From Oscillospiraceae bacterium (lineage in GTDB: Bacteria > Bacillota > Clostridia > Oscillospirales > Acutalibacteraceae): a stretch of DNA of 60,709 bases. How positions within the stretch are numbered: position 1 is the first letter of the stretch; every line of letters begins with the position of its first letter. The stretch is taken from contig SVPF01000009.1 in the NCBI GenBank assembly GCA_015066005.1, positions 1 to 60,709 of the forward strand, given 5' to 3'. Positions 31,052 through 53,868 of this stretch are shown in pieces. The notes beneath the pieces were generated by a model that made no database searches, was not told where the DNA came from, and worked only from the letters and a program-made list of their open reading frames with translations. A program made the position numbers and the translations under genes.

Positions 31052-31431
31052 GTTATAGTTTATCGCTTGGTTGAATTGGTGGCATATCGTAGGGACAATT
31101 CACGAATTGTCCGTAAATTACAGCTATGTACAGGCGGGCGATTCGTGAATCGCCCCTACAGATACACAATTTAATTTGTACAGTAATTACGAATTACGCA
31201 TTACGAATTACGCATTATTTATGTCGATATATAGCTACGCAATTCGATATTTTTGCTTTATAGCAAAATCGATATGATATAAATCCCTTCTTGTTCCGCA
31301 GAACATATCGAGGTTTTGATGCAGTTTGTTCTTACAAGCTGCTTCAAAAGCATATCGAGTCATTTGTGACATATTGAAAATCCCGAAAGGGATTTATATC
31401 GATGGGCCTTCGGCCCTATAAACCCCAATTT
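31050..31431 (+). repeat. Composite intergenic repeat, copy E3, with three inner modules
   Basis: The element runs from AAGTTATAGTTTATCG to CCCTATAAACCCCAATTT. In order it holds a 71-bp GTAGGGACAATTC...CGCCCCTAC module (31089-31159), an ATTACGAATTACGCATT tandem (about 31186-31218) and a hairpin array (31217-31418, listed separately). It is the longest copy in the window and has no ORF. Confidence 0.75.
31217..31418. repeat. Hairpin array A1 with TCGATAT/ATATCGA spacers
   Basis: Short, mutually unrelated palindromes are joined by a constant word. The left half uses TCGATAT (three times); the right half uses its reverse complement ATATCGA or ATATTGA (four times). Stems include TTTTGCTTTATAGCAAAA, GTTCCGCAGAAC, GTCATTTGTGAC and AAATCCCGAAAGGGATTT. 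GATATAAATCCCTT and AAGGGATTTATATC are also complementary across the array. Confidence 0.7.
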
Positions 31432-31461
31432 TCTTTTTATAATAAATATTAATGTTCTTAT

Positions 31462-31490
31462 TTGACAAAACAAAATGTAAATGGTATAAT
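31462..31490 (+). promoter_or_regulatory. Strong promoter of the tRNA-Arg region
   Basis: TTGACA (31462-31467) and TATAAT (31485-31490) are consensus boxes with a 17 bp spacer, 25 bp before the first tRNA-like unit. Confidence 0.88.
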
Positions 31491-31514
31491 ATGTTGGCAA
31501 TTTAGTATATACTT

Positions 31515-31657
31515 GCCTCTATAGTTAAATGGATATATGAACCTCACCCATTAGCAAAATCAAAGATTTTGAATGGGTACCGAGAACCCTGCGGCTTTAA
31601 GCCGAACGGCCCCCTAAGATGTAAAGCCCTTAGGAGTGGGCCGAAAATTTAATATTT
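31515..31657 (+). repeat. tRNA-Arg-derived repeat unit 1 (damaged)
   Basis: The first 23 bases equal the 5' part of the intact tRNA at 31801 (acceptor strand and D arm, GCCTCTATAGTTAAATGGAT). A two-hairpin module (about 31538-31606) follows, then ACGGCCCCCTAAG, a relic of the anticodon arm, and filler. The T arm is missing, so it cannot mature into a tRNA. The unit is 143 bp long. Confidence 0.85.
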
Positions 31658-31800
31658 GCCTCTATAGTTAAATGGATATATGAACCTCACCCATTAGCAA
31701 AATCAAAGATTTTGAATGGGTACCGAGAACCCTGCGGCTTTAAGCCGAACGGCCCCCTAAGATGTAAAGCCCTTAGGAGAGGGCCGAAAATTTAATATTT
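31658..31800 (+). repeat. tRNA-Arg-derived repeat unit 2 (damaged)
   Basis: A second 143-bp copy in direct tandem with unit 1, nearly identical apart from AGGAGAGGGCC in place of AGGAGTGGGCC near its end. Confidence 0.85.
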
Positions 31801-31875
31801 GCCTCTATAGTTAAATGGATATAACGGCCCCCTCCTAAGGGGCAGTTGCAGGTTCGATTCCTACTAGGGGTGCCA
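31801..31875 (+). tRNA. tRNA-Arg (anticodon CCT), CCA encoded
   Basis: It folds as a cloverleaf: acceptor GCCTCTA with TAGGGGT (two G-T pairs, including G1-T72), D stem GTTA/TAAC, anticodon stem GCCCC/GGGGC with loop CTCCTAA giving anticodon CCT, a T arm GCAGG-TTCGATT-CCTAC with one C-A mismatch, and discriminator G plus CCA. It decodes AGG. It is the third copy of a tandem whose first two copies are damaged. Confidence 0.9.
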
Positions 31876-31908
31876 AAAAACTCTCGTTCTTTTGAACGAG
31901 AGTTTTTT
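31875..31908 (+). terminator. Terminator of the tRNA-Arg transcript
   Basis: AAAAAACTCTCGTTC and GAACGAGAGTTTTTT form a perfect stem with a TTTT loop. Confidence 0.92.
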
Positions 31909-31910
31909 AT

Positions 31911-32106
31911 CCATTGCGAAAGCAATGGCATATCATCACGCGTCTGCGTGTATATCATCAACACGGCAATGCTGTCTTGTATCTCATCACACCTTTAGGC
32001 GTGCATCAAAAATCTTTCGCAATGATGATATACAACTTCTTGCGAAGTTGATGATATGCAATTCCTTGCGGAACTGATGATATACAATGCTTCGCATTGA
32101 TTTCTC
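31911..32106. repeat. Hairpin array A2 with ATATCATCA/TGATGATAT spacers
   Basis: Eight or so short palindromes with unrelated sequence: CATTGCGAAAGCAATG, CGCGTCTGCGTG, CACCTTTAGGCGTG, CTTCTTGCGAAG, TTCCTTGCGGAA, TGCTTCGCA and others. They are joined by ATATCATCA in the left half and TGATGATATACAA in the right half. The last hairpin contributes the -35 box of the next gene. Confidence 0.75.
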
Positions 32107-32125
32107 ACCGCTTTTATGCTATAAT
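32097..32125 (+). promoter_or_regulatory. Promoter of the 32147 gene
   Basis: TTGATT (32097-32102) and TATAAT (32120-32125) with a 17 bp spacer; the -35 lies at the edge of the hairpin array. Confidence 0.7.
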
Positions 32126-32146
32126 ACACAAAAAGGCGGTGATAAT

Positions 32147-32419
32147 TTGCAACCCGGCAAGCCAAAGTTTTGGATACTTTTATCGGCTATTTATCTTGCT
32201 TTTCTATGTGTATTTATATTAATTTACAATCCTACTTTTACAAATATTAAAAATTGTTTTTTACTTATTCCTTTGTATATACCGCTTTTTATTTCTTCAT
32301 ATATAAAGCATAAATATGATGAATGTGCAAATGATGGGATTTGGCAGACAAAGTATTCTTTAATTGCTTCTACGCTTATAGTAGTTGCATTTAAATTTGT
32401 AGCTGAATATTTCAGGTGA
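32147..32419 (+). CDS. Small membrane protein, family unknown
   Basis: A 90-residue protein with three hydrophobic segments (about 7-27, 35-50 and 70-85). The start is taken as TTG 32147 because AAAGGCGGTGAT lies just upstream and the promoter overlaps the longer frame. Nothing functional is recognisable. Its position between a hairpin array and a terminator suggests an accessory gene. Confidence 0.5.
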   Translation: MQPGKPKFWILLSAIYLAFLCVFILIYNPTFTNIKNCFLLIPLYIPLFISSYIKHKYDECANDGIWQTKYSLIASTLIVVAFKFVAEYFR

Positions 32420-32465
32420 ATCCTCGGTTTTTACACAGCCCTTTTCGTATAAGATAGACAAAAAC

Positions 32466-32497
32466 AAAAGTCTGCAGTAAATGCAGACTTTTATTTT
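32466..32497. terminator. Terminator between the 32147 gene and the DUF2975 paralogue
   Basis: AAAAGTCTGC and GCAGACTTTT form a 10 bp stem followed by ATTTTT. Confidence 0.82.
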
Positions 32498-32531
32498 TAA
32501 ATGATATTGAAAAAATTGTCGAATTATGGTA

Positions 32532-32954
32532 TTATTTGTCGGTAAAAAGCTCGTCCGAAATGGACCTAAAGGCAAAAATTATAAGGGCTAAAAACATAAA
32601 GGTTGCCGCAACAATGTAAAAGGGTAGGTAATATCTTCCCGCAATAAGTGTTATTACCGAAATTATAAGGCAGCTTATTGACATATATTTTAAAAGCTTT
32701 AAATTTTGTGCCTTGTTAAAATTTTTTTCCTGAATATTCTTAAGCAGCTTTCTTAAAGCAAGCAAAACAACCGCTGTAAAGGGCGCACAAGGGTAGCAGG
32801 TCACCATCATGGTGGTGGCAAGACTTTCGTGGCGCTGTGCTATTTGAACATACCAGGTAACAAGCCAAGGCAGCATTACTGCAAAGGCAACAAGTATAAC
32901 TAAAAACACGGTGGTAAGAATTATTGAAAATTTAATTGTATCGAGCTTTTTCAT
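32532..32954 (-). CDS. DUF2975-like membrane protein (paralogue)
   Basis: A 140-residue protein with four hydrophobic segments. CYPCAPFTAVVLLALRKLLKNI and FNKAQNLKLLKYMSISC align by eye with the DUF2975 protein at 7480-7947, including the Cys-Tyr-Pro-Cys motif. Unlike that gene it has no XRE partner next to it. The ribosome site is GAGGATTTGTT on the minus strand. Confidence 0.68.
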   Translation of the reverse strand: MKKLDTIKFSIILTTVFLVILVAFAVMLPWLVTWYVQIAQRHESLATTMMVTCYPCAPFTAVVLLALRKLLKNIQEKNFNKAQNLKLLKYMSISCLIISVITLIAGRYYLPFYIVAATFMFLALIIFAFRSISDELFTDK

Positions 32955-33004
32955 AACAAATCCTCCTGATGAGGTTATTATACTATAAATTTTTAAATTT
33001 GTAA

Positions 33005-34543
33005 ATGCTAAATGAGGCGATTACGGTTATTAACTTTTTAAAGAAAAGACCGATGCTGTTTTTAGCCTTGGCTTCGGCCTTGTCGGTCTTACTGATTTAT
33101 TATTCATTTTTTACAGCTATAATATTTTCCGCTTTGTGTATTATTTTAATGTTTGTTTTAAATTATAAAAAGCAAAGCGGTGTTTTAATTTTGTGTGTAT
33201 GTCTTTTGCTTTTAACAATGCTTTCGGCCGCACGCACAATGAACAGAATTGACCGATGTGAAAAGCTTGACGGTATGACCGTTTCGGGCGAATTTTTAGC
33301 CGTAACGGTTTCGGAGAATAAGGCTCAGGAATATTTGTGCGAGGTTGAGGTGCTTGAATGTGAATATTTAAAGCGCGGGGACAGGCTTCAAGCGTTTTAT
33401 ACGGGCCCTAAAATTGAAATGGGGCAGTCCTTTCGGGGTATGGCCAAGGTTAGTAAAATTACAAATGAAATAAGCGTTAAAAGCTTTTATTCCGAGGGTA
33501 TATATTTATTTGCCGACGTATCAAATATTGTGCTGACCGATAATTCCGACTTTGTTTTGTCGGCGGTTAACGGTATTCGCACATATATAAAGAATGAAAT
33601 CTTCAAATATTTTGACAAGAGCGAAGCCGCCACAATGCTTGCGCTTTTAACGGGTGACCGCACCTATTTAAGTGACAGCTTTTACAGCAACATAAAATCC
33701 GCAGGTGTTATGCACGTAATGGTGGTTTCGGGTATGCATCTTTCGATAATAGTTTCCTTTATGCTGCTTGTTGTAAACAAATTTATGTATAATCGCTATT
33801 TAAAGGGTGTAATTATTTTCTTAACCGTTTTAGCGGTTGCGGCGGTATGCGGCTTTACAATATCAATTCAGCGTGCGGGCATAACCTATATTTTGCTTGC
33901 CTTGGCGTTGTTTATCGGTCGGCAAGCAAGACCTGAAAACAGCTTAGGCGCGGCAGTAAGCGCGGTTATTTTGTTTAACCCGTTGTCAATTTTCAGTGTG
34001 GCGTTTCAGCTGTCGGTGCTGTCAACCTTTGGCATTCTTGCAGTAGCGCTGCCCATTACAGAATTTCTAAGCAAAAAGGAAATTATTAAGCATAAGGCGG
34101 TTTTATCGCTTGTGTCGGCGGTGTTAATAACCCTTTCTGCACTTTTGCTTACCCTGCCGGTTACAATTTCGGTTTTTGGGTATATTTCAAATATGTCGCT
34201 TGTAACCAACCTTTTAATATCTTATGTAGTAACCTTGGCACTGCACCTTTGCATTTTTGGCTTTTTACTGTTTCCCCTTCGCAGTATTATATTTTATCTT
34301 GCCGCGCTTGTTGTGAAATATATTAATGCTGTTATAAATTATTTCGGCAGTGTTCAGTTTGCGGTTACCGATTTGCCAAAATGGGCGGCTTATTTGTCGG
34401 CAGTAATAATATTTTTAATTTTATTGGGGTTACTTGCTTGTGCAAAGCGGGATAATGTGTTAAAATTGAAAAGTGTTATAAATAAAAAAATCACGGAAGG
34501 CGGTGCAAAGCTAAAATGGCCATTTTTAAAGAAGAAGCGTTGA
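33005..34543 (+). CDS. comEC: ComEC/Rec2-type competence membrane protein, no metallo-lactamase domain
   Basis: A 512-residue protein with the ComEC core: N-terminal helices (about 15-75), an OB-like soluble domain (about 80-190), then the Competence domain with LLTGDRTYLS, VMHVMVVSGMHLSIIV and FNPLSIFSVAFQLSVLSTFGIL. Full ComEC proteins are about 700-800 residues and end in a metallo-beta-lactamase nuclease domain, absent here. ComEC forms the inner-membrane DNA channel for transformation. The start at 33005 has only a weak ribosome site. It lies upstream of holA, its usual neighbour in Bacillota. Confidence 0.85.
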   Translation: MLNEAITVINFLKKRPMLFLALASALSVLLIYYSFFTAIIFSALCIILMFVLNYKKQSGVLILCVCLLLLTMLSAARTMNRIDRCEKLDGMTVSGEFLAVTVSENKAQEYLCEVEVLECEYLKRGDRLQAFYTGPKIEMGQSFRGMAKVSKITNEISVKSFYSEGIYLFADVSNIVLTDNSDFVLSAVNGIRTYIKNEIFKYFDKSEAATMLALLTGDRTYLSDSFYSNIKSAGVMHVMVVSGMHLSIIVSFMLLVVNKFMYNRYLKGVIIFLTVLAVAAVCGFTISIQRAGITYILLALALFIGRQARPENSLGAAVSAVILFNPLSIFSVAFQLSVLSTFGILAVALPITEFLSKKEIIKHKAVLSLVSAVLITLSALLLTLPVTISVFGYISNMSLVTNLLISYVVTLALHLCIFGFLLFPLRSIIFYLAALVVKYINAVINYFGSVQFAVTDLPKWAAYLSAVIIFLILLGLLACAKRDNVLKLKSVINKKITEGGAKLKWPFLKKKR

Positions 34544-35565
34544 AAAAGGCAATAAAAACAGGTGATAAAAATGTTTTTATTCTTTTTGGTGATGACGGTT
34601 ATTTGAAAAAGCTTTATATTGAAAAGATTTCAAAGCCCGTTGCCGATTCGGACGATATTTTTAATTACCAGCGCTTCGAGGCGGATTCCTCCTTGCAGGA
34701 GGTTTATGACGCCGTGCAGCAGTTTCCGATGATGAAGGATAAAAAGGTGGTTATTTTAAGGGATTTTGATTATGCCGCCTGCGATGCCGAGGATTATAAA
34801 AAGCTTATTTCCTTAATTGGTGACGTTCCCGAAACAACGGTATTTATTTTGTGGTTTGATGCCCTTTTAATTGAGCTTAAGAAAAACGCAAAATTTGACA
34901 AAATCGTAAAAGCCTGCGATAGCGCAAGGGGTATGGCTGTAAACCTTACTCACCGCGCGGGACATGAGCTTGAAAAAATGCTTAATGACGGTGCACTAAA
35001 GCGGGGCTGTCAGATGGAAAAGGGCGCCGCACGCCTTTTAATTGAAAATGCGGGCGATGATATTAACACCCTTCATAACGAGCTTGAAAAGCTTTGTGCC
35101 TACGCAAACGGCGAGGTAATTACCAGGGAAATGGTGGAAAAGGTTTCGGTCAAAACGGTCGAGTCTGACATTTATGCCCTGGCAAACAAAATTATGAAAT
35201 GCGAGCTTGAGGCCGCTTTTTCCATCTTAGATGACCTTTTCTTTATGAGGGTTGACCCAATTATAATATTAAGCACAATTTCTTCGGTTTATGTTGATAT
35301 GTACCGCTTACTTGCGGGTAGGAGCAAAAATATAAGCGGCAATAAAATTATTGATGATTTCGAATACGGCAACCGTTCGTTTTTAATTGATAATGCCGCC
35401 CTTAATCTGCGCAGGTTTGATTTTAATAAGCTTCAGCTTAGCCTTAAGGCATTGGCCGATGCCGATGTAGCGCTGAAATCCTTCAGCGGTGAAGACCGTG
35501 TAGTGCTTGAAAAGCTTATAATTAAGCTTTCATACATTGCAGTAAAGGGTGAAAGTGTTGATTAA
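34516..35565 (+). CDS. holA: DNA polymerase III subunit delta
   Basis: A 349-residue clamp-loader subunit that opens the beta clamp. It has the AAA+-like N-terminus (VFILFGDDGYLKKLYIEKI), KVVILRDFDY, the middle helical domain (LLIENAGDDINTLHNELEKL) and the C-terminal collar. The length is typical. ATG 34516 overlaps the end of comEC by 28 bp, indicating coupling. Confidence 0.92.
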   Translation: MAIFKEEALKKAIKTGDKNVFILFGDDGYLKKLYIEKISKPVADSDDIFNYQRFEADSSLQEVYDAVQQFPMMKDKKVVILRDFDYAACDAEDYKKLISLIGDVPETTVFILWFDALLIELKKNAKFDKIVKACDSARGMAVNLTHRAGHELEKMLNDGALKRGCQMEKGAARLLIENAGDDINTLHNELEKLCAYANGEVITREMVEKVSVKTVESDIYALANKIMKCELEAAFSILDDLFFMRVDPIIILSTISSVYVDMYRLLAGRSKNISGNKIIDDFEYGNRSFLIDNAALNLRRFDFNKLQLSLKALADADVALKSFSGEDRVVLEKLIIKLSYIAVKGESVD

Positions 35566-36145
35566 GCTTAATATGCCCATTATCGTTGAGGGTAAGTATG
35601 ACAAAATAACCCTTGAAAATGTGGTTGACACCCTTATAATTTCAACCGACGGCTTTCGCATTTTTAAAAATAAAGAAATGTGTGACCTTATTCGCACCCT
35701 TGCCAAAACCAAGGGTGTTATAGTTATGACCGACAGTGACGGCGCAGGGCAGGTTATTCGCAATCACATTAAAAATATTGCGGCTGACGGTAAAATAATA
35801 AATGTTTATGTGCCGCAGCTAAGGGGTAAGGAAAAACGAAAAGCAGCCCCCTCAAAAGAAGGCTTTTTGGGGGTGGAAGGGCTTTCTAAGGCGGTACTGC
35901 AGGAAACCCTTTCAAAATTTGGTATAACCGAAGCGGTTGGGGCTGAAAATAACCGGAAAATCACTAAGGCTGATTTTTACACACTTGGTCTTTCGGGCGG
36001 CGAAAACAGTTATGATAACCGACAAAGGCTTATTTCGGCATTAAATTTGCCGAAAAATCTTTCGGCCACAGCGCTTTTGGATGTGGTAAATACACTATAT
36101 ACATTAGATGAATTTGTTGCAATTGCCGAAAAAGCTTTAAATTAA
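35555..36145 (+). CDS. Toprim-domain protein (RNase M5-like, DUF4093)
   Basis: A roughly 196-residue protein with an N-terminal Toprim fold: PIIVEGKYDKITLE (Glu of the motif), then VIVMTDSDGAGQVIRNHI (the DxD). The rest resembles DUF4093, as in RNase M5-like proteins; RNase M5 trims 5S rRNA precursors. Whether this one has that activity is not shown. GTG 35555 has AAAGG 6 bp upstream and overlaps holA by 11 bp; TTG 35558 is an alternative. There is no rRNA gene nearby. Confidence 0.78.
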   Translation: MLIKLNMPIIVEGKYDKITLENVVDTLIISTDGFRIFKNKEMCDLIRTLAKTKGVIVMTDSDGAGQVIRNHIKNIAADGKIINVYVPQLRGKEKRKAAPSKEGFLGVEGLSKAVLQETLSKFGITEAVGAENNRKITKADFYTLGLSGGENSYDNRQRLISALNLPKNLSATALLDVVNTLYTLDEFVAIAEKALN

Positions 36146-36217
36146 AAATTTGTGTTTTGTTATGGTAAATTTTGTGGTATAATACCGATATGTTTTTTAA
36201 AAAGTGAGGGCAGGGAA

Positions 36218-37702
36218 ATGCAAAAAATCGGGTTTGACAATTCGGAATATATAAAACTTCAATCGCAAAAAATCCGCGACAGGATTGACAGCTTCGGTGA
36301 TAAGCTTTATCTTGAATTCGGCGGTAAGCTTTTTGACGATTTTCACGCCGCGCGCGTGCTTCCCGGCTTCCATCCCGATGCAAAAATTAAAATGCTTTTA
36401 GAGCTTAAGGATGATGCCGAGGTGGTAATTGTCATCAACGCCGACGCTATTGAAAAAAATAAGCGCCGCGGGGATTTGGGCATTACCTACGACCTTGAAA
36501 CCCTTCGCCTTATTGATGCTTTTCGCCAAATCGGTCTTTATGTGGGCAGTGTCGTTATTACCTGCTATGCAGGTCAGCATTCGGCTGCCGCCTTCGAAAA
36601 GCGACTTAATTCCTTGGGCATTAAAACCTACCGCCACTTTTCCATACCTGATTATCCCGCAAACATTCCCTTTATTGTAAGTGATGATGGCTTTGGTAAA
36701 AATGATTATATCGAAACCGAAAGAAAGCTCGTAATTGTTACAGCTCCGGGTCCGGGCAGCGGTAAAATGGCAACCTGCCTTTCTCAGCTTTACCACGAAA
36801 ACAAGCGTGGAGTTAAGGCGGGCTATGCAAAGTTTGAAACCTTCCCTGTGTGGAATTTACCCTTAAAGCATCCCGTAAACGTTGCTTACGAGGCCGCTAC
36901 GGCTGATCTTAATGATGTTAATATGATTGATCCCTTCCATTTGGATGCATATAACGAAATGGCGGTAAACTATAACCGCGATATTGAAATTTTCCCCGTT
37001 TTAAATGCCATTTTGGAAACTATAATGGGTCAGTCACCCTACAAAAGCCCTACTGATATGGGGGTTAATATGGCAGGCTTTGCCATTACTGATGATGCGG
37101 CCGTATGCGATGCCGCCAAGCAGGAAATTATCCGCCGTTACTATGCTGCAATGACAAACGTTACTCAGGGCATGAGTGATATGTCGGCCGCTGCTAAAAT
37201 TGAACTTTTAATGAAGCAGGTGGGTGTTACCGTTTCCGACCGAAAGGTTGTTGCGGCTGCCTTGGAAAAGGCCGAATTAACGGGTCTGCCTGCTGTTGCA
37301 CTTCAGCTTCCGAACGGCAAAATTGTTACGGGTAAGACCTCAAGCCTTTTGGGTGCATCTTCGGCGTTATTGTTAAATTCGCTTAAGGTGCTTGCAGGTA
37401 TTCCCGATGATATTGACTTAATTTCATCCACGATTATTGAGCCTGTACAAAAGCTTAAAACCGAAATTATGGGCAACCATAACCCCCGCCTTCATACTGA
37501 CGAGGTGCTTGAAGCTCTGTCAATTTGTGCGGTTACAAGCGATGTGGCAAAAAAAGCATTGCAGGAAGCGCACAGCTTAAAGGGCTGTGAAGCGCACTCC
37601 TCGGTAATACTTTCCCGTGTGGATGAAGATGTTTTTCGTAAGCTTGGTGTTAATATCACATTTGAACCCAAATATCAGACAAAAAAATTATACCATAACT
37701 AA
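36218..37702 (+). CDS. DUF1846 family protein
   Basis: A 494-residue cytoplasmic protein matching DUF1846 (UPF0371) over its whole length: GFDNSEYIKLQSQKIRDRI, LYLEFGGKLFDDFHAARVLPGF, YAGQHSAAAFEKRL, VTAPGPGSGKMATCLSQLYHE (a phosphate-binding-loop-like segment near residue 178) and LHTDEVLEALSICAVT. The function is not established. The start at 36218 follows GAGGGCAGGGAA; a TATAAT box at 36178-36183 lies upstream. It is monocistronic. Confidence 0.9.
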   Translation: MQKIGFDNSEYIKLQSQKIRDRIDSFGDKLYLEFGGKLFDDFHAARVLPGFHPDAKIKMLLELKDDAEVVIVINADAIEKNKRRGDLGITYDLETLRLIDAFRQIGLYVGSVVITCYAGQHSAAAFEKRLNSLGIKTYRHFSIPDYPANIPFIVSDDGFGKNDYIETERKLVIVTAPGPGSGKMATCLSQLYHENKRGVKAGYAKFETFPVWNLPLKHPVNVAYEAATADLNDVNMIDPFHLDAYNEMAVNYNRDIEIFPVLNAILETIMGQSPYKSPTDMGVNMAGFAITDDAAVCDAAKQEIIRRYYAAMTNVTQGMSDMSAAAKIELLMKQVGVTVSDRKVVAAALEKAELTGLPAVALQLPNGKIVTGKTSSLLGASSALLLNSLKVLAGIPDDIDLISSTIIEPVQKLKTEIMGNHNPRLHTDEVLEALSICAVTSDVAKKALQEAHSLKGCEAHSSVILSRVDEDVFRKLGVNITFEPKYQTKKLYHN

Positions 37703-37707
37703 AATAG

Positions 37708-37734
37708 TTGCCCATTCATTTGAATGGGCAATTT
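37708..37734 (+). terminator. Terminator after the DUF1846 gene
   Basis: TTGCCCATTC and GAATGGGCAA form a perfect 10 bp stem followed by TTTATT. Confidence 0.85.
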
Positions 37735-37826
37735 ATTATAGTTAAAATTTTATCTGAATTTGTGCAAAATATACAAAATTCGACAAAAACATTTTATAAG
37801 AATTTTGGATTTTTAACAAAAAATAC

Positions 37827-47169: not shown

Positions 47170-47198
47170 TTGACAAAACAGCTTAAATGCTGTAATAT
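47170..47198 (+). promoter_or_regulatory. Promoter of the CNNM-type gene pair
   Basis: TTGACA (47170-47175) and TAATAT (47193-47198) with a 17 bp spacer. The spacer holds an ACAGC-TTAAAT-GCTGT inverted repeat, a possible operator. Confidence 0.78.
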
Positions 47199-47239
47199 AT
47201 ATGTTACAAAATATTTTTTAATAATAGGAGTTGGTTTTT

Positions 47240-48250
47240 GTGGACGACAGTCCTGCGGGGAATATTATACTTTTCCTTGTACTAATTTTGCTTAGTGCCT
47301 ATTTTTCGGGCACGGAAATTGCTTTAGCATCGGTTAACAAAATACATATGATAAGCAAGGCTTCCAAAGGGGAGCATGCTGCCAAGCGTGTGCTTAAAAT
47401 TTTAGATAATTTTGACGAAGCGCTGTCGGTGCTGCTTATCGGTAATAATATTGTTAACATTGCCTGCGGTACCTTGGCTACCGCAATCACTCTACAATTC
47501 GGTCCCGCCTGGGTAACGGTTGCAACCGCAGTCGCAACGGTGGTTATTTTCGTTTTGGGTGAAATGATACCCAAAAGCTTTGCGCTTTCCTGCAACGAAA
47601 AATTTGCCGAATTTGCATCAGCCTTTTTAATGCCGTTAATGTTTGTTTTAAAACCCATTTCTTTGGTATTTTCGGGTCTTACTGCGCTTGTGTCGCTTCC
47701 GTTTAAAAAGCACACCGAAGCGGTTGAAACCATTACTGAAGAGGAATTGGTTGACATTGTTGAAAACATTTCGGTTGAGGACGGCTTTGATGAGGACAAG
47801 GGTGAGCTTGTTAAATCTGCATTGCATTTTGATAATCGCACTGCACAGGAAATTATGGTAAAGTGGGACGATGTTTTAAAAATTTCCACCACCCTTAAAA
47901 CTCCCGATATTTTAAAGATTGTTAAGGAAACAAAGCATTCGCGAATTCCTGTTATCGATCGTTCGGGTAAGGTGAAGGGCATTTTGCAAATTCGCAAATT
48001 CTTTAAAGCCTATATGCAACGCAAAAACAATGTTATCTTGGCAAGTATTATTGACTATCCGTTTTATGTTAATGCCGATACCGCCATTGATGATGTTTTG
48101 CGTGAAATGAGCGAGCATCGCCGCAATTTAAGTCTTGTTAAGGATGAAAACGGCGAGGTTATCGGTATTCTCACTATTGAGGATATTTTAGAAGAATTAG
48201 TCGGCGAAATCTATGACGAGGACGACATAGGAGGTGCCGATGATGAATAA
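47240..48250 (+). CDS. CNNM/HlyC-type membrane protein with CBS pair, no CorC domain
   Basis: A 336-residue protein with a DUF21/CNNM membrane domain (about 1-175; FSGTEIALASVNK, LLIGNNIVNIACG, LGEMIPKSFAL) and two CBS modules (about 200-325), ending at GEIYDEDDIGGADDE. Family members act in Mg2+ or other cation export. Unlike its neighbour it lacks the C-terminal CorC/HlyC transporter-associated domain. GTG 47240 is chosen because AGGAG lies 10 bp upstream; the in-frame TTG at 47231 touches that site. Confidence 0.85.
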   Translation: MDDSPAGNIILFLVLILLSAYFSGTEIALASVNKIHMISKASKGEHAAKRVLKILDNFDEALSVLLIGNNIVNIACGTLATAITLQFGPAWVTVATAVATVVIFVLGEMIPKSFALSCNEKFAEFASAFLMPLMFVLKPISLVFSGLTALVSLPFKKHTEAVETITEEELVDIVENISVEDGFDEDKGELVKSALHFDNRTAQEIMVKWDDVLKISTTLKTPDILKIVKETKHSRIPVIDRSGKVKGILQIRKFFKAYMQRKNNVILASIIDYPFYVNADTAIDDVLREMSEHRRNLSLVKDENGEVIGILTIEDILEELVGEIYDEDDIGGADDE

Positions 48251-49541
48251 ATGGTATTTACTTATTCCAATTACCTTGCTTTTGGCTGTCGGCGCATTTT
48301 TCTCTGCTACCGAAATTGCGTTTTCATCAGCCAATACCGTAAGGCTTAAAAACCGCAAAAAAAACAGCGGCTCGTTGGGTCATTTGACAGCAATGAAAAT
48401 TTTGGAAAGCTATGACGATTATTTAAGCACGGTTTTAATTGGTAATAACATTGCCAATATGGCAATTTCTTCACTGGCAACCATTATTGTTGTGGATATG
48501 TGGAGCGAAAAATACACCTGGGTGTCCACCTTGGCGGTTACACTTTTGGTGCTTACCTTCGGTGAAATTATACCCAAGGTTTTGGCCAAGCAAATGCCTG
48601 AGGATTTTTGTGTTATGGCCGCTTTACCGATATATATATTATCGTGGATATTAAAACCGCTTAATATTGTTGTTACCGGCTTTGTAAATTTGGTTTCAAA
48701 GCTGTGGCAGTCGGGCGTGAGCGATAGTGAAGCCGTTTCAGAGGATGACTTTGAAAACATAATTGAAATTGTTGAGGACGAGGGCGTTTTGGATGAGGAG
48801 CAATGCGACCTTTTACAAAATGCGCTTGACTTTGACGAGGTGCTGGCTTATGAAATCATTACCCACCGCGTTGATTTGGAAGCGCTTGATATTCGCGACC
48901 CGTATGAAGTAAACATTAAAAAGTGCTGTGAAACAACCTTTTCGCGCCTTCCCGTATTTGAGGATAATGCCGACAATATAATCGGCGTTTTACACCTTAA
49001 CCATTTTTACAAAAAGTTTGTCGAAGGCAAAAAGGTTAACATACGCGAGCTTTTAATTCCTGCAGTAACTGTTCATAAAACCATGCCCCTTCCCGATGTG
49101 CTTGATAAAATGCGTGAAAACAAGCGCCATATGGTTGTCGTGCTTGATGAATACGGCGGCACAATGGGTATTGTAACCATGGAAGATGTTATGGAGCAGC
49201 TTGTTGGTGAAATTTGGGACGAAAATGACGAGATAGAACGCGAGTTCGTTGAGGTGGATGAAAACAAATACGAAGCCGACGGCGATATGCGTGTTTATGA
49301 CTTCTTTGATGAATTTGATATTGACATTGAAGAGGATGAGGATTTCGAGCTTGACAGCGCTACCATAGGCGGTTGGGCACAAACAATGCTTGACGGTGAA
49401 GCCGAAGAGGGCAGTCAGTTTAGCTTTGAAAATTTAGTTATTACCGTTTTACAGGTAGACGGTATAAGAATTGAACGCCTTGGTGTTGAAATTATTCCGC
49501 AGGATGATGAGGAAGACGATACCGAGGAAGAAGACGATTAA
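48240..49541 (+). CDS. CNNM/HlyC-type membrane protein with CBS and CorC domains
   Basis: A 433-residue paralogue of the preceding protein: DUF21/CNNM membrane domain (FSATEIAFSSANT, VLIGNNIANMAIS, FGEIIPKVLA), two CBS modules (about 200-320) and a complete CorC/HlyC domain (about 340-425, with DGDMRVYDFFDEFDID). The acidic tail DDEEDDTEEEDD follows. ATG 48240 (or 48243) overlaps the first gene by about 11 bp, with GGAGG 6 bp upstream. The coupling suggests a heteromeric cation transporter, which is inference. Confidence 0.88.
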   Translation: MMNKWYLLIPITLLLAVGAFFSATEIAFSSANTVRLKNRKKNSGSLGHLTAMKILESYDDYLSTVLIGNNIANMAISSLATIIVVDMWSEKYTWVSTLAVTLLVLTFGEIIPKVLAKQMPEDFCVMAALPIYILSWILKPLNIVVTGFVNLVSKLWQSGVSDSEAVSEDDFENIIEIVEDEGVLDEEQCDLLQNALDFDEVLAYEIITHRVDLEALDIRDPYEVNIKKCCETTFSRLPVFEDNADNIIGVLHLNHFYKKFVEGKKVNIRELLIPAVTVHKTMPLPDVLDKMRENKRHMVVVLDEYGGTMGIVTMEDVMEQLVGEIWDENDEIEREFVEVDENKYEADGDMRVYDFFDEFDIDIEEDEDFELDSATIGGWAQTMLDGEAEEGSQFSFENLVITVLQVDGIRIERLGVEIIPQDDEEDDTEEEDD

Positions 49542-49568
49542 AAAACGCACCCGAAAGGGTGCGTTTTT
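49540..49568 (+). terminator. Terminator after the CNNM pair
   Basis: AAAAACGCACCC and GGGTGCGTTTTT form a perfect stem with a GAAA loop. Confidence 0.92.
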
Positions 49569-49597
49569 AGTATTTAATAACATGCCTATATAAAAAT

Positions 49598-49852
49598 GTT
49601 CAAATTATAGTTTATCGCTTGGTTAAATTATTATATCTTCGGCTCCCTCTGACGAGGGAGCTGTCACGAGGCATGAGTGACTGAGGGAGAGAGAAACCTT
49701 TTAAATAACGTTTTTTTATTCTCTCCCTCCGTCTTTTTGCTTCGCAAAAATCCACCTCCCTCATCAGATGGAGGCACAGATTTTACCATAATTAAGAATT
49801 ACGCATTACGAAGTACGCATTGGGTGTTAGCCCGATAAACTATAATTTGAAC
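49598..49852. repeat. Composite repeat E5 with perfect 20-bp terminal inverted repeats
   Basis: The first 20 bases (49598-49617, GTTCAAATTATAGTTTATCG) are the exact reverse complement of the last 20 (49833-49852). Inside is a large imperfect inverted repeat whose arms are GGCTCCCTCTGACGAGGGAG and CCACCTCCCTCATCAGATGG, plus an ATTACGCATTACGAAGTACG tract. It has MITE architecture with no ORF; no convincing target duplication is visible. It fills the 49542-49861 gap. Confidence 0.85.
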
Positions 49853-49861
49853 AATGTAAAG

Positions 49862-50296
49862 TTAGGCAAGGTTTATTACTGTTTTATTTTTGCGTTTTGC
49901 CTTTTCTGCAAATTGTGCCGCACCACCAAAATTATTTTTAATATATGTAATAACATAATCTGATTTTTCTATCATATAGTTGTTGCGTCTGTGTATGGCA
50001 AATTTTGGCGGAACATTGGTTAAACAATCGGGGAATACTGTATCCGCAAAATCCATATGTTCATAATTTGTATTGTTAGTTGGCAAATATGCTAGTATTA
50101 CATAATATTTAATTTGTGGATATGTTTTCTTTAATTCTTTAAGTGTAAGATAAACAAGTCGGTCAAAGTTGCCTTGATTTCCAACATAAAATGTTGTTAC
50201 GCCGTGTTTTATAATCAATTCTATAATTGTGTTTGCAATAAGCGGTTGAATAATTTCAGAAGTGTTTTTATGACCAAAAAAGGTACAAGCTGACAT
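49862..50296 (-). CDS. SLOG-superfamily protein (YpsA/DUF1273-like)
   Basis: A 144-residue single-domain protein with a Rossmann-like SLOG fold. It begins SACTFFGHKNT (the FxGHR-type phosphate loop), then TTFYVGNQGNFDRLV, YYVILAYLP, RRNNYMIEKSDYVITYI and NFGGAAQFAEKAK. SLOG proteins bind nucleotide-derived ligands, and some act in stress or anti-phage signalling. The ribosome site is GAGGTAAAT. It is divergent from an XRE regulator with operators between them. Confidence 0.8.
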   Translation of the reverse strand: MSACTFFGHKNTSEIIQPLIANTIIELIIKHGVTTFYVGNQGNFDRLVYLTLKELKKTYPQIKYYVILAYLPTNNTNYEHMDFADTVFPDCLTNVPPKFAIHRRNNYMIEKSDYVITYIKNNFGGAAQFAEKAKRKNKTVINLA

Positions 50297-50325
50297 ATTT
50301 ACCTCAGTAATAATATATTTATATA

Positions 50326-50397
50326 TGACATTTAGTGAGTGTCATATATGACCTAATATTAACATATAATTTTCTTAATGACAAGCACTAAATGTCA
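50326..50397. promoter_or_regulatory. Two 19-bp operators between the SLOG and XRE genes
   Basis: TGACATTTAGTGAGTGTCA (50326-50344) and TGACAAGCACTAAATGTCA (50379-50397) are near-identical when one is reverse complemented. Each has TGACA/TGTCA dyad ends, and the centres are 53 bp apart. The first overlaps the -35 region and the second covers the start site of the XRE promoter (TATAAT at 50365-50370). Confidence 0.78.
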
Positions 50398-50411
50398 AAA
50401 GGAGAATGTAT

Positions 50412-50651
50412 ATGTTTATTAACAAGGCCGCTGATGGACTTAATAATGTTTGTGGCAAGAACGTTACTGTTTTTCGCAATAAGTTGGGAATTTCTCAGCG
50501 TGAGCTTGCCGATAAAATGCAATTAGTTGGAATAGATATTGATAAAAATGCCATTCAAAGAATTGAAAGCGGTAAACGTTTTGTCACCGATATTGAAATA
50601 ATTGCTTTCGCAAAGGTGTTTAAAGTGAAAATTGAGGATTTACTAAAATAA
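50412..50651 (+). CDS. XRE-family transcriptional regulator
   Basis: A 79-residue helix-turn-helix protein with NVTVFRNKLGISQRELADKM, AIQRIESGKR and FKVKIEDLLK. ATG 50412 is chosen over ATG 50406 because AAAAGGAG lies 7 bp upstream. It probably binds the two 19-bp operators and controls itself and the divergent SLOG gene. The pair forms a compact two-gene accessory unit. Confidence 0.85.
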   Translation: MFINKAADGLNNVCGKNVTVFRNKLGISQRELADKMQLVGIDIDKNAIQRIESGKRFVTDIEIIAFAKVFKVKIEDLLK

Positions 50652-50679
50652 TTAAAGCGACCCATTGGGGTCGCTTTAA
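50652..50679 (+). terminator. Terminator after the XRE gene
   Basis: TTAAAGCGACCC and GGGTCGCTTTAA form a perfect 12 bp stem with an ATTG-type loop. Confidence 0.87.
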
Positions 50680-50688
50680 AACTTTAAC

Positions 50689-50718
50689 TTGACAAAGCGT
50701 ATTATTTTAAAGTAAACT
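50689..50718 (+). promoter_or_regulatory. Promoter of the coiled-coil membrane protein gene
   Basis: TTGACA (50689-50694) and TAAACT (50713-50718) with an 18 bp spacer. Confidence 0.6.
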
Positions 50719-50770
50719 GATATATATAGTATAGGTATTATACTGTAATAAAAGTTTAGGGGGAAATAAA

Positions 50771-51913
50771 ATGGCAGAATTATGTCATATACTTTGGGAT
50801 GCCGAAGAGGTTGTTAAAAAGATTTCTAAGGCCGAAGGAGAAATTCAGCAACTTGAAAAGGACATTATAAAGCGCAAGGAAGTTATAGCAAACCCCGTAC
50901 CTAAAGATAGTAAGAAAAAAGATGTTATTGGCAAGCACGAGCAAGAGGCAATGGATAAAGAAAATAACCGCTTTATCGCCGAAAGGTCAGCCGCACGTAA
51001 GGGCGCTTACAGGTCGGTTAAGGGCCCGGGTGTTGCTATTAGTATTATTTCATTATTAATAATGGCAGGTCTGCTTTATTTATCAATGCCTGTTTTGGCT
51101 ATTACAATTGGCGGTGCTTATGCTATTTTAACAATTGTTGGTATAGTGGCGTACGCACGCCTACAGGAAAGTGCGCCAATTTGCAAAACCTACAGAACAT
51201 TTGCAATTTTGTGGACTATTGCATCATTTTTAGGTGCTTATGCATCAACCCTTTTAATCCAAATGGAAAAAATGGATATATTACACGCATTGGCTTTTGG
51301 CGCAGGTCTTGGCGCAAGTGCCCTTGGCTCATTAATAAACGTTATTTTAATTTCAAAAGGCTTAAAGGTTCACGCAACTGCCTTTAATGAAAAAGACTTT
51401 TATGATAATAGCGCACTGGTTAAGGAAGCACGCAAGCTTGATGCTGAAGAAGATGCTAAAGCTGAAGCTGATTTAGCTGCTAAAATTGTTAAGCAAAACA
51501 AAGCCAAAATTAAAGAAAACGAGGCTAAAATAGTTGAGCTCAAGGCAAGTCTTCCTGCACTTAATAAGGAACTTGATTCTATCATTGTTTTGCCGCCTAA
51601 ATACCGTGATTTAAATGGTTTGGGTCGTCTTACGGGGTATTATTTAAGCTATAAACAGGAATATGGTAATGACCCAACTGATTTAGACCAGTACATAAGT
51701 TATGTTGAATGGAAAGTAAAAGAACGTGAATGGGAGCGTGAACGTGAAAACGAGCGTGTCCGTAGAGAAGTTGCAAAATCAATTGCGAATACAATATATG
51801 AAGCAAACCGCCGCAATGAAGAAGATATGCGCAGAAGACAGGTTGAGCGTGATTTGAGCGCCGCCAGAAAAGAATTAGAAGAATTAAATAGAACACTTGA
51901 CAAGTTTAAGTAA
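50771..51913 (+). CDS. Coiled-coil membrane protein, family unknown
   Basis: A 380-residue protein: an N-terminal coiled coil (about 12-75), four hydrophobic segments (about 85-200), then a long Lys/Glu/Ala coiled coil (about 215-270), a short conserved-looking module LPPKYRDLNGLGRLTGYYLS, DPTDLDQYISYVEWK, and a highly charged C-terminal helix rich in Arg and Glu (about 320-380). The LPPKYR module resembles one seen in zinc-ribbon/coiled-coil proteins of Clostridia. Both ends are probably cytoplasmic. The ribosome site is TAGGGGGAAATAAA. Its role is unknown. Confidence 0.68.
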   Translation: MAELCHILWDAEEVVKKISKAEGEIQQLEKDIIKRKEVIANPVPKDSKKKDVIGKHEQEAMDKENNRFIAERSAARKGAYRSVKGPGVAISIISLLIMAGLLYLSMPVLAITIGGAYAILTIVGIVAYARLQESAPICKTYRTFAILWTIASFLGAYASTLLIQMEKMDILHALAFGAGLGASALGSLINVILISKGLKVHATAFNEKDFYDNSALVKEARKLDAEEDAKAEADLAAKIVKQNKAKIKENEAKIVELKASLPALNKELDSIIVLPPKYRDLNGLGRLTGYYLSYKQEYGNDPTDLDQYISYVEWKVKEREWERERENERVRREVAKSIANTIYEANRRNEEDMRRRQVERDLSAARKELEELNRTLDKFK

Positions 51914-51930
51914 ATTTAAAAGCACCCGAA

Positions 51931-51959
51931 GAGGCACACTCCGTAAGGAAGTGTGCCTC
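51931..51959 (+). terminator. Hairpin after the coiled-coil gene
   Basis: GAGGCACACT and AGTGTGCCTC form a 10 bp stem. The downstream T tract is poor (AGTTATATTTG), so termination may be weak. Confidence 0.6.
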
Positions 51960-52021
51960 AGTTATATTTGATTTGTATTTTTGGTGGCGAATAATATTAG
52001 ATAATTAACGGAAGTGATAAA

Positions 52022-53158
52022 ATGAGTAAGAAAAGAAAAAACGACTGGAAACAAAATTTATTTACAGTTTTGCTCGGGCTATCTGCTGTAGCCTTTGGCT
52101 TTTGTTTTGCGTTTTATATTGATGAATTTTTTGTTGATAAGGCCACAGGGTCAGACAAGGTATTTATGCTTTTATCGCTACTTATAGGAATGTATGTCAG
52201 TATTTTTGTAAATACAATCATTCACGAGGCGGGACATTTGGTGTTTGGGCTTCTTACGGGATATAAATTCAGTTCCTTCCGTATTCACAATTTAATGTGG
52301 GTAATGGAAAATGATAAGATAAAATTTAAGCGTCATAGTATTGCGGGTACGGCAGGACAATGCCTTATGTCACCTCCCGATATGGTGAACGGCAAATTTC
52401 CTGTTGTGCTTTATAATCTTGGCGGTTGCATTTTTAATTTTATTGTTGCGGTTATTTCGTTTTTGGCTTTTTTTATTTTCAAAAATCAACCGTTTTTTGC
52501 AGTATTTATTTTGGGATTTGGTGTATCGGCTTTAATTCTTGCCGTTTCTAACGGAATACCCCTTAAAACCGCAACGGTTAACAATGATGGTTATAATACG
52601 TTGGATATCACCCGCAACAGCGAGGCAATGAATACGTTTTGGTTGCAATTAAAAATTGTGGAGCAAACCTCAAAGGGTGTGCGGCTTAAGGATATGCCAA
52701 GTGAATGGTTTGAATTTCCGACTGATGACGCAATGCAAAACAGCATGGTTGCCACAAGCGGTGTTTTTACGGCTAATCGGCTTTTGGATGAGCAAAAATT
52801 TGCCGAAGCGGCAGAATGTATATCGCACTTGTTGGAAATAGAAAGCGGCATAGCGGGCATATATCGCAATTTGATAATTTGCGACCGTATTTTTATTGAA
52901 CTTATTGGTGAAAATCGCCGCGAAGCAGTGGGCAGGCTACTCACTAAAGAACAAAAGAAGTTTATGAAGCAAATGAGGAATTTTTTAACTGTGCTTCGCA
53001 CGGAATATGCACTTGCTTTGTTATATGAAGAGGATATTGAAAAAGCAGAGAAAATTAAAGCGGAGTTTGAAAAGCGTTGTAAAACCCACCCATATAAGCC
53101 TGATATTGAATCCGAAAAAGAATTGATAAATATAGCTGATGAAAAATTTAAGGCATAA
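52022..53158 (+). CDS. M50-type membrane zinc metalloprotease
   Basis: A 378-residue protein with helices at about 15-33, 45-70, 130-155 and 158-180. The zinc motif HEAGH sits in the second helix (NTIIHEAGHLVFGLLTG, near residues 66-82), typical of site-2-protease-like M50 enzymes. A helical TPR-like domain follows (about 220-375). The second metal-binding element (usually NxxPxxxLDG) is not obvious; NGIPLKTATVNNDGYNTLD may correspond. It could cleave a membrane regulator or process exported peptides. The start follows GGAAGTGATAAA. Confidence 0.72.
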   Translation: MSKKRKNDWKQNLFTVLLGLSAVAFGFCFAFYIDEFFVDKATGSDKVFMLLSLLIGMYVSIFVNTIIHEAGHLVFGLLTGYKFSSFRIHNLMWVMENDKIKFKRHSIAGTAGQCLMSPPDMVNGKFPVVLYNLGGCIFNFIVAVISFLAFFIFKNQPFFAVFILGFGVSALILAVSNGIPLKTATVNNDGYNTLDITRNSEAMNTFWLQLKIVEQTSKGVRLKDMPSEWFEFPTDDAMQNSMVATSGVFTANRLLDEQKFAEAAECISHLLEIESGIAGIYRNLIICDRIFIELIGENRREAVGRLLTKEQKKFMKQMRNFLTVLRTEYALALLYEEDIEKAEKIKAEFEKRCKTHPYKPDIESEKELINIADEKFKA

Positions 53159-53187
53159 AAAACGGACGAGTGAAAGCTCGTCCGTTT
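53159..53187. terminator. Terminator after the M50 gene, reused downstream
   Basis: AACGGACGAG and CTCGTCCGTT pair around TGAAAG, followed by TAGTTTG. The same stem recurs at 53501-53515 and 53869-53882, where it is split by an insertion. Confidence 0.82.
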
Positions 53188-53210
53188 AGTTTGTGAAATT
53201 AAATATCCAA

Positions 53211-53399
53211 CTATTTTACCTCGGCGTTTTTAATGGCATAATCCAAAAGAATATTAATAAGTTCATTGCGGGAACGGTTAGTATTTTCTGCAAGCTTATC
53301 AAGATTATCAACGGTTTCTTCTTTAATTCTTATAGAAAAAGTTTTGTAACCGTCCTCACCCTTGAGGGACTTTTTGTTAATTATTAGCTTTTTCTCCAT
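53211..53399 (-). CDS. Orphan ribbon-helix-helix (CopG/Arc-type) regulator
   Basis: A 62-residue protein: KTFSIRIKEETVDNLDKLAE and NRSRNELINILLDYAIK form the ribbon-helix-helix fold. Such proteins are often antitoxins or plasmid-type repressors. No toxin gene lies next to it. ATG 53399 has AGGTGAG just upstream. A 14-bp palindrome in front of it is the likely operator. Confidence 0.83.
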   Translation of the reverse strand: MEKKLIINKKSLKGEDGYKTFSIRIKEETVDNLDKLAENTNRSRNELINILLDYAIKNAEVK

Positions 53400-53430
53400 A
53401 ACACTCACCTCAATTGTTATTATGGCTTGA

Positions 53431-53468
53431 TTTATGTTATAAATATATGTTATAATTTATAACATAAA
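53431..53468. promoter_or_regulatory. 14-bp perfect palindrome, likely RHH operator
   Basis: TTTATGTTATAAAT (53431-53444) and ATTTATAACATAAA (53455-53468) are perfect inverted repeats. ATGTTATAA occurs a third time in the centre. A plus-strand promoter, TTGATT with TATAAT at 53451-53456, is embedded in it. Confidence 0.8.
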
Positions 53469-53488
53469 ACGATTGCGCAGGTGATTAT

Positions 53489-53587
53489 ATGAATGAAATA
53501 AACGGACGAGTGAAAAGTCTACTTTTCATAAAGATGATTAAAACCTCGATGAAATTCATCGAGGTTTTTCATATGCTTATCATATAG
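53489..53587 (+). pseudogene. Truncated gene start running into a terminator stem
   Basis: A promoter and a good ribosome site (CAGGTGATT) lead to ATG 53489, but after four codons (MNEI) the frame enters the AACGGACGAG terminator arm. It reads only 32 codons, through a second terminator, to TAG. The body of a gene regulated with the ribbon-helix-helix gene appears to have been deleted. A real 32-residue peptide cannot be excluded. Confidence 0.45.
53540..53569 (+). terminator. Strong hairpin inside the inserted segment
   Basis: AAAACCTCGATGAA and TTCATCGAGGTTTT form a long perfect stem followed by TC; it could stop transcription from the 53456 promoter. Confidence 0.78.
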
Positions 53588-53589
53588 AA

Positions 53590-53868
53590 CCAGCATTGCA
53601 TTTGTAAGTACAAATGCTGCTTTTGGGGTAATACCCAAACCCTTTTAACAACAAACAAGAAAGATAAGTGATATTCTTTGCTGTGCAAAGAGTGATATTT
53701 TCACTTTGCGAAAGTGATATTACTCCCTTTGGTCGTAGTGATATTTTATTCGCCCTAAAAACTGTCCGAAGGACAATATCACTTGGCGAAAGCCAAATAT
53801 AACTGCGAAGCAATAGAACTCGCCTTTGGCGAATAAAACTGGGAGACTTCCTTATGGGAAGTCTCCCA
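53590..53868. repeat. Hairpin array A3 with GTGATATT/AATATCACT spacers
   Basis: Unrelated palindromes (GCATTTGTAAGTACAAATGC, CTTTGCTGTGCAAAG, GTCCGAAGGAC, TGGCGAAAGCCA, CGCCTTTGGCG, GGGAGACTTCC with GGAAGTCTCCC) are joined by AGTGATATT in the left half. In the right half the joints are AATATCACT, AATATAACT, AATAGAACT and AATAAAACT. The array sits in the loop of a split terminator (arms 53501-53515 and 53869-53882). Confidence 0.75.

Follow-up and report, generated by a model that had tools for sequence, protein, structure and literature searches.

Three word-hairpin arrays in the window

We analysed a stretch of 60,709 nucleotides from an Oscillospiraceae bacterium (contig SVPF01000009.1 of assembly GCA_015066005.1; the whole stretch is referred to here as 'the window'), which carries three arrays in which a constant word stands between successive palindromes and reverses its orientation at the centre, as read in the sequence (arrays 1, 2 and 3, of word families A, B and C, respectively; Table 1). 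In array 1, three copies of TCGATAT are followed by three of ATATCGA and one of ATATTGA; array 2 has two copies of ATATCATCA and then three of TGATGATAT; and array 3 has four exact copies of GTGATATT in its left half and, in its right half, one exact AATATCAC followed by the diverged forms AATATAAC, AATAGAAC and AATAAAAC. In a scan for word dyads, where a run of one 6-mer gives way to a run of its reverse complement, arrays 1 and 2 scored 6 and no other place in the window reached 5; all 12 of 12 dinucleotide-shuffled windows were free of any place scoring at least 5. Array 3 was missed by this exact scan because the words of its right half have diverged, and the central flip is therefore only partly seen there. 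The shared design with a central flip, as given in a preliminary description of this DNA, is thus confirmed in arrays 1 and 2 and recurs in relatives (see below), and holds in part for array 3.

Each array, when folded as RNA, beat every one of its shuffles (z = -6.3, -5.4 and -8.0 for arrays 1, 2 and 3; 0/200, 0/200 and 0/100 shuffles folding as well), a check that the preliminary description had proposed. The canonical layout is a terminator-like hairpin (P0), then W P1 W P2 W P3 W, a centre, and W' P4 W' P5 W' P6 W', where W is the word and W' its inverse. Between copies the word is constant and the palindromes differ with compensating changes. We scored the five outer positions of each palindrome in the 20 complete 4+4 arrays among 30 family A arrays found (10 incomplete ones omitted, several of the 20 being near-copies; segments shorter than 10 nt omitted, leaving n=17 for P2 and n=19 for P3), and Watson-Crick pairs out of five were more numerous within a copy than between swapped copies for every palindrome (4.80 vs. 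3.84 in P1, 4.24 vs. 2.03 in P2, 3.95 vs. 2.33 in P3, 4.40 vs. 3.08 in P4, 4.95 vs. 3.94 in P5, and 4.65 vs. 1.98 in P6). The 3' segment of the centre is in addition complementary to the 5' arm of P1 and part of W (e.g. GATATAAATCTC with GAGATTTATATC), so that P1 has two mutually exclusive partners; this long-range pairing covaries in the family A set (6.75 of 7 in own vs. 4.96 in swapped copies), and families B and C show the complementarity by eye. Pairing of words with inverse words (W1:W8' and so on) would build a ladder of four-way junctions; the words themselves do not vary.

These observations alter how the palindromes are to be seen: they had been called random and unrelated, and yet they follow an identical order among sister copies, with stems that are homologous and covarying between distant copies. 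A CRISPR-like array was ruled out by the flip of word orientation and by the covarying palindromes between the words, and the likening of the arrays to a reversed CRISPR serves as a mere image. At the gathering score, Rfam matched only tRNAs in the window, and no rRNA; a known Rfam RNA was ruled out as the identity of the arrays on this ground.

Dispersed copies and a companion gene

The genome from which the window comes (G000; 1.97 Mb in 53 contigs, 88% complete, the window being contig C2) holds many word pairs of all three families (40, 16 and 38 matches for A, B and C vs. 1, 0 and 0 for backwards-word controls). Array 1 can be aligned with five sisters along a single, sharply bounded unit; array 1 is without one word-palindrome unit that the five sister copies have, and its outer end is kept in 6/6 aligned subfamily copies up to AAATTGGGG, past which the DNA is unrelated. 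Among 80 relatives, 66 have at least one family A match, of which many single ones may be due to chance (controls 0-4 per strand), and several have a clear excess (e.g. 28+26 matches vs. 0+0 in the control for G009). In most displayed arrays of relatives, those inspected in G042 included, the word runs forward and then in reverse, and the central flip therefore recurs. In a scan of named genomes at least 120 stretches matched; among the 80 listed, 11 had matches on both strands, all 11 being Clostridia or Oscillospiraceae by title, and many of the 80, from unrelated organisms, probably match by chance. A search of related genomes, as the preliminary description had called for, thus finds that the arrays are not unique and that the design recurs.

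On contig C11 of the same genome, a 126-aa open reading frame (ORF) between two half-arrays matches PF05635 (23S_rRNA_IVP, E = 1.6e-18) and TIGR02436 (four helix bundle protein, 2.7e-21), and we refer to such genes as IVP genes. PF05635 is present in 57/70 genomes of the genus and at five places in G000, none of them on the window contig, so the window copies are IVP-less. Members with the gene exist in all three families (C11 for A and C15 for B in G000; L374 and L368 for C in relatives). A word dyad scoring at least 5 lies within at most 400 nt upstream of 14/29 IVP genes, as compared to 5/839 ORFs of at least 150 aa in a near relative (G083) and 1/800 shuffles; the 29 are the distinct genes among 30 best matches, one per genome (L349 and L351 merged with L334), and two IVP genes with short upstream sequence were left unscored. 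The conserved companion gene that had been suggested as something to look for is therefore in place, and the guess that the arrays are a mobile DNA structure agrees with their many copies, conserved layout and IVP linkage.

Words vary from one IVP locus to another (ATGATG, GTGATG, ATGAAG, GTGAAA, TATTCA and others), and the GATAT core once held to be common is not essential, since the first four of these serve other families. On a tree of 42 IVPs, word class changes 12 times (minimum 10; shuffled mean 25.7, with 0/200 shuffles as low), the tree being made by a quick method and 38 of the word labels assigned manually. All nine IVPs with TCGATAT, some of them from the genus and the rest from other named metagenome-assembled genomes of Clostridia, fall on one side of a branch (SH-aLRT, an approximate likelihood-ratio support value, 93); several of these loci were fetched by the word, and they are therefore silent on how frequent it is at IVP genes. 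A TTGA..-TATAAT-like box occurs in the last 110 nt before the IVP start in 10/40 loci (0.56 expected), and the end of array 2 has one likewise.

Array 3 ties a window copy directly to an IVP-bearing form. Family C arrays (GTGATATT) precede the IVP gene in L368, L372 and L374 (by eye), and array 3 is identical to the array upstream of the L374 IVP at 154/185 positions. Its tail matches the DNA 3' of the IVP stop in L374 (36.5, shuffle maximum 22.5) and L368 (36.0, shuffle maximum 20.0), and does not match the post-IVP DNA of L372 (12.0 vs. a shuffle maximum of 24.0). As array and tail together correspond to both sides of the L374 IVP with the gene gone, the pattern of a miniature inverted-repeat transposable element (MITE), array 3 is, to judge from these alignments, most simply explained as derived by deletion from an element with an IVP gene.

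Several features of the IVP-bearing loci were noted on the side. Two same-family arrays stand in tandem, cassette-like and ~0.5-1.3 kb apart, in L104, L125 and L013/L015, with an IVP gene between them in L104. IVP genes of the AATKCGTAAT class in L334, L351, L352, L363 and L365 occupy apparently one conserved place in several species, behind a topoisomerase-like gene (by eye). Methyltransferase-, membrane-protein- and ion-channel-like genes (by eye) follow the IVP gene 3' in L368, L371 and L372, and are possible cargo.

Insertion sites in the genus and beyond

We compared 32 array loci of G000 with G083 (malQ 95% identical; ~1.12 Mb of ~1.6 Mb read) and found three clean family C sites, on C8 (384 bp), on C4 (321 bp) and at the broken contig ends C35/C36. 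At all three, the G083 counterpart is an intact terminator hairpin, its loop four bases long (ATAA, GTTC and GAAA), and the G000 element lies inside that loop; any target-site duplication there amounts by eye to a few bases at most. The flanks just outside the element were also scored as paired arms for family C copies: 11/12 copies have arms scoring at least 9, as compared to 14/132 swapped pairs (flanks cut by hand, with A/T tracts raising the null; C13a, C17 and C41 displayed and unscored, C33b the C33a locus again, and C48 and C50 copies not fetched). Array 3 is among the 11, its arms AAACGGACGAG and CTCGTCCGTTT pairing as a terminator-like split hairpin, and the extent earlier given to it (53590-53868) thus cuts into an element that lies between inverted arms at 53500-53510 and 53871-53881. 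The malQ locus was unusable as an empty-site test for array 3, as the neighbouring genes differ between G000 and G083, and for this array only the flanking arms could therefore be used. One insertion is nested: the C33 copy occupies the loop of a hairpin whose uninterrupted form is seen in the C20 copy (by eye and by arm score). Because the empty sites are intact hairpins and one insertion is nested, gain at the filled sites is more likely than precise loss, while proof falls short at each single site.

Array copies are located behind protein genes and behind several tRNA types, and on a preferred strand. A gene lies within 120 nt on the P0 side in 22/30 canonical family A arrays and reads in the array sense in 20 of these 22; where the second neighbour also reads forward, 11/12 are in the array sense, that neighbour being the IVP gene in 2/12. 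A tRNA precedes the IVP gene at 9/30 loci searched, all nine on the IVP strand, and accompanies 6/7 family B loci, all six on the array strand. This bias fits targeting of a transcript or of an exposed strand.

Outside the genus, PF05635 was found in 25/119 genomes of the phylum, where the IVP gene often has short-word repeats upstream and their inverse downstream, with no hairpins between. This inversion of word repeats between flanks exceeded the 95% level of swapped pairs in 17/27 loci, comprising 25/30 phylum loci (one from G000 and one duplicate pair included; L383, L386 and L398-L400 had no usable flanks) and two chosen plasmid loci, both of which were above that level. Those two, L406 (Nostoc) and L408 (Treponema), have word arrays and their inverse around the IVP gene, the heptamers of L406 reading GCGACTT. 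Rfam, applied to 10/30 phylum loci, placed three in 23S rRNA (L385, L389 and L394), one in a class A RNase P RNA and two beside tmRNA, the tmRNA genes of L396 and L405 standing within a few hundred bases of the IVP genes. In the RNase P case (L391 1229-2003, 775 nt), the Infernal alignment puts the IVP gene, in RNA sense, in an apical loop. Occupancy of apical loops was thus found for family C (the three empty sites and 11/12 copies, which brings in array 3, alone among the window arrays) and for L391. On two gut scaffolds filed as phage, an IVP gene is likewise seen by eye together with a word-hairpin array and a terminator-like hairpin; a tRNA precedes this group on one of the two scaffolds.

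Table 1. Parts of the three arrays and adjoining features, in window coordinates.
Feature	Position	Strand	Remarks
Array 1 inner edge, ATTATTTATG and adjoining ATTACG-type repeats	31200..31223	minus	common to sister copies
Array 1, family A, word TCGATAT	31224..31402	minus (canonical)	
Array 1 words	31224, 31244, 31269 (+ sense); 31305, 31352, 31371 (ATATTGA), 31396 (reverse-complement sense)		palindromes between
Array 1 outer end	31403..31431	minus	P0 hairpin GGGCCTTCGGCCC and conserved edge TATAAACCCCAATTT
tRNA-Arg (CCT)	31801..31875	+	directly upstream of array 2
Array 2 P0, terminator-like hairpin	31875..31908	+	by eye similar in some sisters behind other tRNAs
Array 2 P1 hairpin CCATTGCGAAAGCAATGG	31911..31928	+	5' arm complementary to centre segment CTTTCGCAATG, read in sequence
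Array 2, family B, word ATATCATCA / TGATGATAT	31930..32083	+	
Promoter-like TTGATT-16-TATAAT	32098..32125	+	downstream end of array 2; read in sequence
Left arm of split host hairpin, AAACGGACGAG	53500..53510		flanks array 3 element
Terminal hairpin of array 3 element, AAAACCTCGATGAA / TTCATCGAGGTTTT	53540..53568		
Tail of array 3 element	53570..53667	minus	homologous to DNA directly 3' of the IVP stop in L374 and L368
Array 3, family C	53668..53839	minus (canonical)	whole element ~53511-53870
Array 3 words	53668, 53692, 53714, 53738 (GTGATATT); 53775 (AATATCAC); 53796, 53812, 53832 (diverged)		
Array 3 P0 hairpin GGGAGACTTCC..GGAAGTCTCCC	53840..53868	minus	
Right arm of split host hairpin, CTCGTCCGTTT	53871..53881		just behind malQ (53887-55410, minus)

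Two repeats adjoin the arrays in the window. A hairpin repeat (GTAGGGACAATTCACGAATTGTCC / GGGCGATTCGTGAATCGCCCCTAC) at 31089-31159 borders array 1, and several family A sisters as well, and is possibly a separate small mobile repeat. A 143-bp unit in two tandem copies (31509-31794, 99% identical) precedes the tRNA-Arg gene; each copy holds the 5' part of that gene with the anticodon region disrupted by eye, and the third, complete copy of the repeat is the tRNA itself.

A probable mobile module and its alternatives

We reasoned that the arrays form the structured part of small mobile elements which, when complete, carry an IVP/S23 four-helix-bundle gene, that the window copies are IVP-less and non-autonomous, and that these elements insert into the apical loops of hairpins (terminators here, 23S rRNA and RNase P RNA elsewhere in the phylum), a reading to which we give a probability of roughly 0.78. 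Part of it is direct observation: the copies are dispersed, with presence or absence and terminator-loop junctions at three sites; arrays stand by IVP genes; word class tracks the IVP clade for most words; and the palindromes covary, as does the pairing of the P1 arm with the centre. The remainder concerns how such elements might move. The array would act as a folded single strand, either RNA or single-stranded DNA, with the repeated word as the binding site of the cognate IVP, which we infer because the word is constant within an array while the hairpins need only pair; the earlier guess of a protein-binding scaffold fits the IVP linkage and would need such binding. The bound IVP may then carry the array to looped hairpins exposed during transcription, where cutting and joining would fall to host enzymes.

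A number of observations weigh against this account. At any single site the difference from G083, itself only partly read, could reflect precise loss rather than gain, and clean paired flanks were obtained at only three of the 32 G000 loci. Family A junctions are composite, and the A copy at C8 sits behind a terminator, outside the loop; within family C, C33e2 is without arms, C15 scores via an A/T-rich stretch, and the scored flanks were cut by hand. The family A copy at C11 (L029 1411-2051, 640 bp) is circularly permuted, running from the centre and right half through the IVP gene to the left half; the element, IVP gene included, is not in G083, and its order suggests that a circular form existed or that tandem copies recombined. 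For 22 IVP-bearing copies, a search for flanking arms found none within 450 nt downstream, and insertion into terminator loops is therefore shown for IVP-less copies only. As to the word code, 15/29 IVP genes have no exact-word array scoring at least 5 (some have diverged or other words by eye), and two words do not follow the tree, ATGATGT with four changes (96/500 shuffles as low) and GTGATGT with three (500/500 as low); these two differ by one letter and are intermixed on it. Finally, the sense-strand bias could be explained by selection for keeping termination.

The enzymes that might move such elements bear on two of the rival explanations. RVT_1, the reverse transcriptase (RT) domain, gave no match in G000, G009, G042, G005, G013 or G038 and is present in 17/70 genus genomes; Y1_Tnp is present in 47/80 relatives, G000 among them with five matches, and gave no match in the array-rich G042 nor in G014, G067 and G075, where arrays are known by pattern counts only (all of these assemblies are incomplete). 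As G042 matches neither, neither seems required, insofar as incomplete assemblies allow, and both were set aside as the mover, the RT on the strength of G000 and five inspected array-bearing relatives and the Y1 transposase on that of array-bearing G042. It is accordingly unlikely that the arrays are a retroelement whose RNA enters an RNA loop and is then reverse transcribed, with IVP as an Avd-like partner of the RT. The IVPs at RNase P and rRNA sites do match the Avd model weakly (E = 2.2e-5 and 6.1e-5, both under the model's cut-off) and the sense-strand bias would suit such a route, but the hairpin-class IVPs L374, L009 and L173 have no Avd match at E 0.01, and the RT domain is as scarce as described. 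Least likely of the alternatives, in our view, are elements resembling repetitive extragenic palindromes (REPs) and REPINs, with a Y1 (RAYT/IS200-type) transposase that recognises word and hairpin in single-stranded DNA. A REP is a tetranucleotide plus a hairpin, which the word-hairpin units resemble, and the transposase domain is widespread in the relatives; the genomes without a match tell against it, as does the identity of the gene that adjoins the arrays, which is IVP.

Two further explanations involve no movement enzyme, and the structural data bear on both. Template switching in replication could perfect palindromes and so produce covariation in a fold without function; palindrome correction is a known mutational process, and palindromes that change while their pairing stays are what it would leave. 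We hold this to be just as unlikely as the retroelement, because the long-range complementarity of P1 arm and centre is kept too, for which local correction is not an easy explanation, and because the words are constant and mostly track the IVP. The other is a cis-acting RNA leader or 3' untranslated region, riboswitch- or attenuator-like, in which competition between P1 and the centre regulates neighbouring genes. Strong folding (z from -5.4 to -8.0), covarying stems with mutually exclusive pairing and a location mostly in the sense of the upstream gene are all in its favour; we nonetheless regard it as somewhat more doubtful still, given copies behind protein genes and several tRNA types, their absence at three orthologous sites, the promoter-like box that separates the array from the IVP start at several loci (upstream of the start in 10/40), and the tRNA-only Rfam result in the window.

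The preliminary description held that no feature class fits the arrays, and a related class is in fact known, namely the intervening sequence (IVS) of 23S rRNA with its S23/IVP gene. According to an account of Coxiella burnetii (PMC4990558), the IVS lies in helix 45 of 23S rRNA, carries the S23p ORF preceded by heptamer repeats, and is cleaved by RNase III; in such helices an original tetraloop is said to have been replaced, the functionality and origin of the IVS are called unclear, and S23-family proteins are described as being without known function. Excerpts of two other papers report 23S_rRNA_IVP in rRNA insertions of the candidate phyla radiation (CPR; PMC11270868) and in cas loci (PMC3936711), and no title, abstract or excerpt found in the open PMC literature, preprints excluded, deals with IVP elements in terminator loops or with hairpin-word arrays. 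Our families share with the IVS the protein family (PF05635/TIGR02436), through their IVP-bearing members, and, as far as those excerpts describe it, a hairpin-loop site, short repeats by the ORF (heptamers in Coxiella) and complementary ends. The window copies differ in having no IVP gene, in lying in or behind terminators (array 3 within terminator-like arms and array 2 behind tRNA-Arg, neither in a 23S rRNA helix) and in the hairpins between their words, and some array families reach many copies per genome.

Other known systems share single traits. Cyanobacterial short tandemly repeated repetitive (STRR) heptamers occur in RNase P RNA and in tRNA-Leu introns; the likeness lies in word arrays with an inverse on the opposite side, the Nostoc plasmid IVP having heptamers of the GCGACTT type, whereas the array seen there has no palindromes between its words. 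The word arrays around the IVP genes of L406 and L408 suggest that cyanobacterial STRR heptamers belong to IVP elements. REPINs and bacterial interspersed mosaic elements (BIMEs) are short, dispersed, non-coding palindromic mobile units that rely on a protein encoded elsewhere, RAYT; here the companion is IVP rather than a Y1 transposase, with 6-8 words per array and insertion into loops. Group IIC introns target transcription terminators, but Rfam matched only tRNAs in the window, G000 has no RT match, and the insertion is inside the hairpin loop. The Avd protein of diversity-generating retroelements (DGRs) is a related four-helix bundle, weakly matched by the rRNA- and RNase P-type IVPs, in contrast to which G000 is without an RVT_1 match.

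On a broader scale, the IVP/S23 elements could form a large mobile class that settles in hairpin tips, be it of terminators, rRNA or RNase P RNA, and needs no more than a four-helix-bundle protein and a word code. Each clade of IVPs would read the short word of its own inverted array, IVP-less copies would spread in trans, and rRNA IVSs and cyanobacterial heptamers would be special cases; we see the chances of this as evenly balanced. It would be surprising, if true, for such elements to move with neither a transposase nor a reverse transcriptase encoded. With families that reach tens of word-pair matches in one genome, empty sites in a near relative, matched forms with and without the IVP gene, and a word that mostly tracks the IVP, the material is now at hand, and binding by IVP, movement in trans and the choice of loop therefore become testable. 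The arrays thereby give a lead on how the long-known and unexplained intervening sequences of rRNA may spread.

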